From Muribaculaceae bacterium (GTDB lineage: Bacteria; Bacteroidota; Bacteroidia; Bacteroidales; Muribaculaceae), in assembly GCA_029063895.1 (NCBI GenBank), contig JAIDNJ010000050.1, forward strand, positions 1-38,460: 38,460 nt of DNA. The letters run 5' to 3'. Under the pieces are notes generated by a model. The model did no database searches. It was not told where the DNA came from and worked only from the letters and a program-made list of their open reading frames with translations. Below are positions 12,091 through 24,271 of this stretch, piece by piece. The position numbers and the translations under genes were made by a program. How positions within the stretch are numbered: the first letter of the stretch is position 1; each line of letters opens with the position of its first letter.

Positions 12091-12239
12091 CATACGCTAA
12101 ACGTAAATAGTTAAATTTAAAGTTATAGAAAAGACGTGCCTTGTGCATGAATGAAATGTAAACACTTGTTATTCAACCACTACGTGCCAAAATCCCTACA
12201 AAATTAATTGATTAGGGGGATTTAAGGGATTTGAAAAGT

Positions 12240-12463
12240 ATCGTCGGAGACGATAAACAGGTTTAAACCCCATCATGTAGCCCGATAGGGCGTATTGATG
12301 GGGCCGTCTGAGCCTAACCAGGCCTACATCCTCAAGGAGGATGAACCGTGCAAGGGTATTGTTCATCGTCTTCGACGATGGGGTTGAAGGTGAGTCGAAG
12401 AACCCCACCAAGTCGCTGACGCTCCATGGTGGGGTTTAAGGTTGTTATTGGTCTCCGACCAAT
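12240..12463. repeat. Structured intergenic element, copy A (224 bp)
   Basis: Bounded by ATCGTC-GGA-GACGAT and ATTGGTC-TCC-GACCAAT; internal hairpins CATCCTC-AAG-GAGGATG, CATCGTC-TTC-GACGATG, CCCCATCA/TGATGGGG, CCCCACCA/TGGTGGGG; aligns end to end with 23957-24180. Confidence 0.85.
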
Positions 12464-12524
12464 TTTCGCATAATCATGTCCCGACAAATTGGGGGTGACT
12501 TTCTCTATCACTTTTGACTGTCAA

Positions 12525-12695
12525 TCAGTCGTCAACTTTTGAAAAATCTTCTTTTCCAACACCACAAAGAGGACAAACCCAATCGGCAGGGAGATCTTCA
12601 AACGCGGTTCCGGGAGCAATACCGTTATCGGGATCACCTACTTCGGGGTCATAAACCCACTGACAAACGTCACATACATATTTATCCATATTCAT
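12525..12695 (-). CDS. Rubredoxin
   Basis: Read directly from the minus strand: [56 protein letters not shown]; two CxxC metal-binding motifs. Absent from the ORF track because it is shorter than 60 aa. Confidence 0.96.
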
Positions 12696-14600: not shown

Positions 14601-14630
14601 TACCTACCCAATCGTCAGGTCAACAGAGGA

Positions 14631-14734
14631 TTGGTCGGAGACCAATAACAAGCTTTAACCCCGCCATGGAGCGTCAGCGACTTGGAGGGGACCTACGATG
14701 ACACTTATAAAATACATCGTCGGAGACTATAAAC
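14631..14734. repeat. Structured intergenic element, copy B (inverted, shortened)
   Basis: ATTGGTCGGAGACCAATAACAAGCTTTAACCCCGCCATGGAGCGTCAGCGACTTGGAGGGG is the reverse complement of the right end of copies A and C; ends with ATCGTCGGAGACTATAAAC. Confidence 0.75.
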
Positions 14735-14834: not shown

Positions 14835-14860
14835 GTAGGACGCGATATTTCGCGTCCTAC
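14835..14860. repeat. Perfect palindrome GTAGGACGCGA-TATT-TCGCGTCCTAC
   Basis: 11-bp perfect arms; no T run adjacent. Confidence 0.8.
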
Positions 14861-23850: not shown

Positions 23851-23898
23851 CAAAAAAACACGTGCCCTACATCAAACACTGAAAGAGGGTATGTAGGG

Positions 23899-23915
23899 AC
23901 GTGCCCTTGGCACGT
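23899..23915. repeat. Intergenic palindrome ACGTGCC-CTT-GGCACGT
   Basis: Perfect 7-bp stem, 3-nt loop; compensatory variant of 8296-8312. Confidence 0.75.
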
Positions 23916-23956
23916 AGTGGGTGGTAATCAGATAATTGCATTTCTTATGACCTGCT

Positions 23957-24180
23957 TTCGTCGGAGACGATAAACAATCTTAAGCCCCACAATGGAGCCC
24001 GACAGAGCGGATTTGTGGGGTAGAGAGTCAATACCGCACCTCACATCATCGGAGATGATGAACATCATCACACTGGGTTCATCGTATCCGACGATGGGTA
24101 TAGGGTGTGAGGCCGCATGCCCCACCAAGTCGCTGACGCGCCATGATGGGGTTTAAGCTTGTTAATGGTCTTCGACCAAT
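23957..24180. repeat. Structured intergenic element, copy C (224 bp)
   Basis: TCGTC-GGA-GACGA left end, TGGTC-TTC-GACCA right end, hairpins CATCATC-GGA-GATGATG, CATCGTA-TCC-GACGATG and CCCCACAA/TTGTGGGG; same architecture and length as copy A. Confidence 0.85.
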
Positions 24181-24271
24181 TCGCCGACTCTCCCGTCCTA
24201 TTGTTCTCCTATCAAAACTTTATTTGAGCGGGCAGGACGCGAAATATCGTCCCCTCATCATAGTATAACAA

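Follow-up and report, generated by a model that had tools for sequence, protein, structure and literature searches.

Inverted three-hairpin units of Muribaculaceae, probably derived from the ends of a subclass 1.2 IS200-like transposon

Introduction

What are the two long, hairpin-rich intergenic sequences at positions 12240-12463 and 23957-24180 of contig JAIDNJ010000050.1? The window analyzed here is the whole 38,460-nucleotide stretch in which they lie, from the genome of a Muribaculaceae bacterium (assembly GCA_029063895.1). A first-pass annotation, made from the sequence alone, had described them as copies A and C of a structured element whose stems change in sequence but stay paired, and had proposed that the structure is under selection, either as RNA or as hairpin DNA recognized by a transposase-like enzyme.

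Results

The element consists of two inverted units. Both copies are present as described and are one and the same ~225-bp element. With the boundaries originally drawn, each is 224 nt long; the conserved flanking blocks are there as quoted, and so are the diverged stems, CATCCTC-AAG-GAGGATG (12327-12343) in copy A against CATCATC-GGA-GATGATG in copy C, and CCCCATCA/TGATGGGG in copy A against CCCCACAA/TTGTGGGG in copy C. A covariance model placed the boundaries at 12238-12464 and 23955-24181. Copies A and C share 74% identity, and both fold far more stably than dinucleotide-preserving shuffles: z = -6.1 (copy A) and -4.1 (copy C) as DNA and z = -7.3 (copy A) as RNA. The 224-nt element is real, but the true unit is half that size: each copy consists of two inverted ~105-nt units separated by a 13- to 14-nt spacer (Table 1). 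The GATGAAC...GTTCATC sequence, which is indeed present and had been read as a competing pairing, is therefore where the two units, U' and U, meet symmetrically. A third copy in the window (B) is half-length. Other short intergenic palindromes lie near the copies, GTAGGGACGTGCCCTTGGCACGTAG (23893-23919), which starts with GTAG like classical REPs, and TAGGACGCGATATTTCGCGTCCTA (14836-14859); both recur elsewhere in the same genome.

Table 1. Positions of the units and hairpins in the window
Feature	Position	Strand	Basis
Copy A, left unit U' (inverted)	12238-12346	-	R1 covariance-model match, 83.9 bits
Copy A, outer hairpin h3', ATCGTC-GGA-GACGAT, C(GGA)G triloop on + strand	12240-12254		Sequence, loop statistics
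Copy A, central hairpin h2', CCCCATCA...TGATGGGG	12268-12303		Sequence, pair counts
Copy A, inner hairpin h1', CATCCTC-AAG-GAGGATG	12327-12343		Sequence, pair counts
Copy A, spacer, 14 nt (length conserved, sequence not)	12347-12360		U'-U neighbor spacers
Copy A, right unit U	12361-12464	+	R1 match, 100.4 bits
Copy A, inner hairpin h1, CATCGTC-TTC-GACGATG	12364-12380		Sequence, loop statistics
Copy A, central hairpin h2, CCCCACCAAGTCGCTGACGCTCCATGGTGGGG, with A.A mismatch	12403-12434		Sequence, mismatch counts
Copy A, outer hairpin h3, ATTGGTC-TCC-GACCAAT, C(GGA)G on - strand	12447-12463		Sequence, TNC loop in 51/53 units
Copy B, single unit U without inverted partner	14629-14734	-	R1 match, 94.7 bits
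Copy C, left unit U'	23955-24063	-	R1 match, 81.7 bits
Copy C, spacer, 13 nt	24064-24076		U'-U neighbor spacers
Copy C, right unit U	24077-24181	+	R1 match, 92.5 bits

Three hairpins make up each unit: h1, h3, and between them h2, which contains an A.A mismatch. Read 5' to 3', U begins with GTT and h1 (CATCNTC-TYC-GANGATG), followed by a variable linker and by h2, which has the form CCCCACCA-A-...-A-TGGTGGGG in the window and different stems elsewhere; TTTAA..TTGTT then leads into h3 (NTTGGTC-TYC-GACCAAN). U', on the left, is the reverse complement of U. Conservation ends abruptly on both sides, outside at the foot of h3 and inside at GTT, and the U'-U spacer measures 11 to 14 nt in 11 of 16 neighboring pairs from the window's own genome (G000) and genomes G007, G015, and G161 (three genera), with a sequence that differs between copies. 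The loops of h1 and h3 read C(GNA)G on one strand: in U, 51 of 53 h3 loops are TNC, or GNA when read from the opposite strand, with a C-G closing pair, and the h1 loop is TNC in 38 of the 48 units with a 3-nt loop. In phage N4 promoters, hairpin extrusion in supercoiled DNA requires just such a C:G closing pair and a 3-nt loop with a 5' G and a 3' A (PMC4496689); we draw this parallel between 3-nt DNA loops as a structural analogy only and claim no relation by descent or function.

Pairing is maintained while sequence drifts. In a MAFFT alignment of 22 units, built without reference to structure, 89.5% of the pair cells were paired, and 48 cells showed two-sided change; shuffles gave 16.5 such cells and slid partners no more than 6. 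An alignment of 53 units, which was fitted to the model and so leans toward structure, had two-sided change at 18 of 28 pairs (179 cells against 60.5). These counts, judged against shuffles or slid partners, bear out, across many copies and species, the original observation made on two copies. Within six U'/U pairs, the local stems were 89% paired despite agreement between the arms at 74% of stem sites, which implies that local hairpins, rather than one long palindrome, are kept.

Template-switch correction is known for imperfect palindromes, and the compensatory changes could in part have arisen by such correction of quasi-palindromes instead of by selection for a recognized structure. The hairpins studied here are all close to perfect palindromes, which agrees with that explanation. 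As a full account we nevertheless consider it improbable: it explains neither the near-invariant C(GNA)G loops nor their fixed orientation relative to tnpA (see below), and the A.A mismatch of h2 is almost never corrected, its two positions being A in 51/53 and 53/53 units.

The units are dispersed between genes. A BLAST search with copy A against its own genome (2.58 Mb in 261 contigs, ~89% complete) returned 25 matches, some of them full elements and others half or partial ones, so that the further copies envisaged by the first-pass annotation do exist. The model gave 19 to 24 matches in each of G000 and three congeners (G002, G005, and G007). An exact-pattern search of the genome contigs with the h2 core gave no match, and the phage records searched gave none either. 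The distribution is patchy, units being undetected in four of seven congeners (G001, G003, G004, and G006). In G007 (C19, 142778-144648; L029/L024), two units in the same orientation, ~1.65 kb apart, flank a P-loop ATPase-like gene, an arrangement that may be a composite or due to chance.

None of the 17 sites examined in the window's own genome lies inside an open reading frame, and the 15 that could be classified comprise 8 convergent, 6 tandem, and 1 divergent intergenic region (the copy A site being counted as convergent by virtue of a 56-aa rubredoxin-like gene at 12525-12695 on the minus strand), with no neighbor gene in common. Since at least one gene ends at 14 of these 15 sites, the units might be thought domesticated bidirectional terminators or stabilizers of mRNA 3' ends, of whatever origin. 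We regard this as unlikely, because the same 3' bias would arise if purifying selection removed insertions from genes and promoters, T-runs do not regularly follow the hairpins, and the association with tnpA would be left unexplained. A structured RNA (a regulatory RNA, small RNA, or riboswitch) with a selected secondary structure would accommodate the strong RNA fold and the covariation, but a scan of the window against Rfam at the gathering threshold found no family, the copies share neither a type of site nor a neighbor, and modular partial copies exist. Moreover, the C(GNA)G loop is known to stabilize DNA hairpins (PMC4496689), and hairpins with this loop sit in a set orientation around a transposase gene. 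A structured RNA is thus highly improbable.

A comparison of the A/B and C sites with congeners, mostly fragmentary assemblies with one per species, gave no clean pair of occupied and empty sites: the flanking genes were partly conserved with synteny broken, and the genes beside copy C occurred without the element in six congeners, again with broken synteny. No target-site consensus was seen outside h3 or at the inner edge. We set aside two other possibilities, integron attC sites and invertible promoters, no cassette array or link to a recombinase having been seen.

In relatives, the units bracket a Y1 transposase gene. The window's own genome, 89% complete, yielded neither a Y1 transposase nor any match to PF01797. 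In the congener G002, a 147-aa Y1 gene (tnpA) lies between U', at 53 nt upstream, and U, at 4 nt downstream; the tnpA stop codon directly abuts the GTTCATC of U. The 22 units behind covariance model R1 came from G000, G005, and G007; none lay beside a detected tnpA or at the G002 tnpA locus. Run across the family (198 genomes), the model also matched the immediate flanks of tnpA in four other genera, on both sides in G079 and further in G115, G167, and G221. Every upstream unit in these four was inverted relative to tnpA, and the downstream unit of G079 was on the strand of the gene; G115 has an extra inverted unit 335 nt downstream. The arrangement was U'-tnpA-U wherever both sides were found, and the spacing of U' and U is mostly either 11 to 14 nt without a gene or 480 to 496 nt with tnpA. 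Of 297 genomes from the family, 149 have relatives of tnpA, and the G002 gene is the only same-genus tnpA that carries this type of unit. Genome G015, which is 99% complete, has many units and no tnpA match; units can thus occur without the gene, which fits the situation in the window's genome.

A second family of units brackets the tnpA of G007 (L045, G007:C18, 1120-1245, ~1290-1440, and 1935-2065). Its hairpins are GTCGGGG..CCCCGAC, CCCACGG..CCGTGGG, and then GTTAACTATACATCGTC, and it has 26 matches in that genome. At four sites in G007 (C7, 77126-77357; C14, 58624-58855; C13, 4451-4681; C3, 534887-535128) units of the second family abut a unit of the first at a nearly constant 9 to 14 nt, as if the two inserted side by side or traveled as a composite.

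Inverted flanks and loop orientation extend to many tnpA loci. The flanks of tnpA scored as inverted repeats above all 150 mismatched pairs at 28 of 32 loci. It was in these 32 loci that the loop rule was noticed (P = 8e-10 in the same test of loop orientation), before 80 further loci from Muribaculaceae and other rumen and gut Bacteroidales assemblies were picked by protein similarity only. Because units are shared between these loci, the mismatched-pair null was unusable as a threshold for the 80, and loop orientation and distance were used instead. Upstream of the gene, C(GNA)G outnumbered C(TNC)G by 97 to 12, and downstream the ratio was 4 to 124 (Fisher's P = 4e-47 overall, a value that overstates the evidence, as at least one of the 80 loci was already in the first set [L129 = L094] and related loci do not represent separate events). 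The hairpins clustered at -200 to -100 and +50 to +150, mostly less than 200 nt from the gene with few in the far flanks, and both loop marks fell within 200 nt at 44 of the 65 loci with enough flanking sequence. Inverted three-hairpin flanks also surround a tnpA copy on a plasmid of Persicobacter (Cytophagales). The tnpA flanks in Bernardetia had no inverted units, and five control loci of IS200 subclass 1.1 (L211 to L215) showed neither inverted repeats nor the loop pattern.

The associated enzyme is a class 1 Y1 transposase. All TnpAs of the 32 loci checked have the class 1 signature Y---Q--HH; the proteins are short (~147 aa), and a profile of them matches Y1 transposases of solved structure, that of IS608 among them. 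The unit itself flanks a gene of the ~148-aa Y---Q--HH type in G002, G079, G115, G167, and G221. Against the NCBIfam IS200 model, the G002 protein scored 52.6 (cutoff, 55), and it was not placed in the REP family. In size, signature, and occurrence in Bacteroidetes, these proteins correspond to subclass 1.2 of TnpA-Y1, which has been reported to be generally without typical terminal secondary structures, the table entry being "no" (Quentin et al. 2018, PMC6006769), whereas the genes here are bracketed by inverted three-hairpin units that are also dispersed without tnpA. Like IS200/IS605 elements such as IS608 and ISDra2, they combine a single small tnpA with hairpins at the ends, but the ends here are long inverted repeats of three hairpins. 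Subclass 1.1, with its Y[IV]ENQ-type motif lacking HH and its end hairpins without long terminal inverted repeats, is excluded by the signature in 32/32 flanked TnpAs, and inverted flanks occur at 28/32 loci.

TIRtrons (TIRYT) likewise have a Y1 gene between long inverted, partly self-complementary repeats and families of such repeats in the genome (PMC3733652), but they mostly belong to another transposase subclass, 2.1 (PMC6006769); the short ~147-aa class 1 proteins seen here are not the subclass 2.1-type Y1 with a helix-turn-helix tail.

A closer comparison is with REPINs, inverted doublets of hairpins with short spacers that are extragenic, dispersed, and likely moved by a Y1 enzyme (PMC3116915, PMC3733652). 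The present doublets resemble them in orientation, fixed spacing (11 to 14 nt in 11/16), and extragenic position (0/17 sites in an open reading frame), and G005 encodes a 159-aa REP-type Y1 protein. A true REP/REPIN system, in which a class 2 RAYT moves GTAG-tagged palindromes, is nonetheless very unlikely. The GTAG/GTGG tetranucleotide is not conserved (in the consensus of 53 units, GTT precedes h1 and a GTAG column is lacking), the unit is a 105-nt array of three hairpins rather than a 20- to 40-bp palindrome, and the unit-flanked enzymes are of class 1. The G005 gene (L048, G005:C119, 1342-1821; 56 bits on the NCBIfam REP model, cutoff 80) has no unit nearby in the stretch searched. The REP-associated transposase that the first-pass annotation had in mind was not found in the window's genome; the associated enzyme is a subclass 1.2 TnpA, seen in relatives only. 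CGTC-REPs, which have an unpaired CGTC tag, an 8- to 9-bp stem, and a 4- to 5-nt loop, also differ, CGTC occurring here only in paired stems and the loops being mostly of 3 nt.

Discussion

The element is best explained as non-autonomous, REPIN- or MITE-like mobile DNA derived from the inverted ends of a subclass 1.2 IS200-like transposon, a reading to which we assign a probability of about 0.8. It draws together the architecture, the covariation, the dispersal, and the tight, oriented association with tnpA. Counting against it are the lack of any Y1 match in the window's own genome, the failure to find a clean pair of occupied and empty sites or a target-site consensus, and the fact that a single same-genus tnpA carries this type of unit. 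Of the two possibilities first raised for the structure, hairpin DNA recognized by a transposase-like enzyme fits well, since relatives have a Y1 transposase gene set between the units, and RNA has no positive evidence in its favor.

The autonomous form would be U'-promoter region-tnpA-U, ~0.7 kb long, with the Y1 (HUH) transposase of ~147 aa as its only gene, and the window copies would be both transposon ends joined by the 13- to 14-nt spacer with no gene between them. In single-stranded DNA, such as the lagging-strand template, or in negatively supercoiled DNA, the hairpins would form, h1 and h3 as mini-hairpins with C(GNA)G loops on one strand and h2 as a mismatched hairpin. The units are probably DNA hairpins recognized by subclass 1.2 transposases: TnpA would bind the three-hairpin unit, cut near its edges, and move the DNA in trans, and the end-only derivative may have spread in this way, as REPINs are thought to be spread by RAYTs. 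Because the 13- to 14-nt spacer is fixed in different genera, the gene-less pair would seem to replicate as such and not to have arisen by independent deletions. In the window's genome, the copies are now extragenic hairpins, mostly downstream of genes, with a possible passive effect on transcript ends.

On balance, we lean toward the broader view that subclass 1.2 Y1 enzymes define a distinct class of transposons, with inverted three-hairpin ends bearing C(GNA)G loops on opposite strands, that spawns REPIN-like, gene-less satellites. If so, each strand would carry one GNA end and one complementary end, and the same-strand scheme of IS608 could not be used unchanged. In the open literature we found no papers beyond those cited that tie Bacteroidetes repeats to IS200-like genes, and an earlier description may exist.

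A published survey found subclass 1.2 to be without recognized DNA structures and judged it not to share the properties of insertion sequences (PMC6006769). The units described here are strong candidates for the missing structures, which makes the question directly testable. With them, the REPIN concept of inverted hairpin doublets mobilized by a Y1 enzyme would take in the IS200 branch of the superfamily as well as Bacteroidales of the gut and rumen, and C(GNA)G would provide a simple sequence rule by which such ends may be spotted elsewhere.
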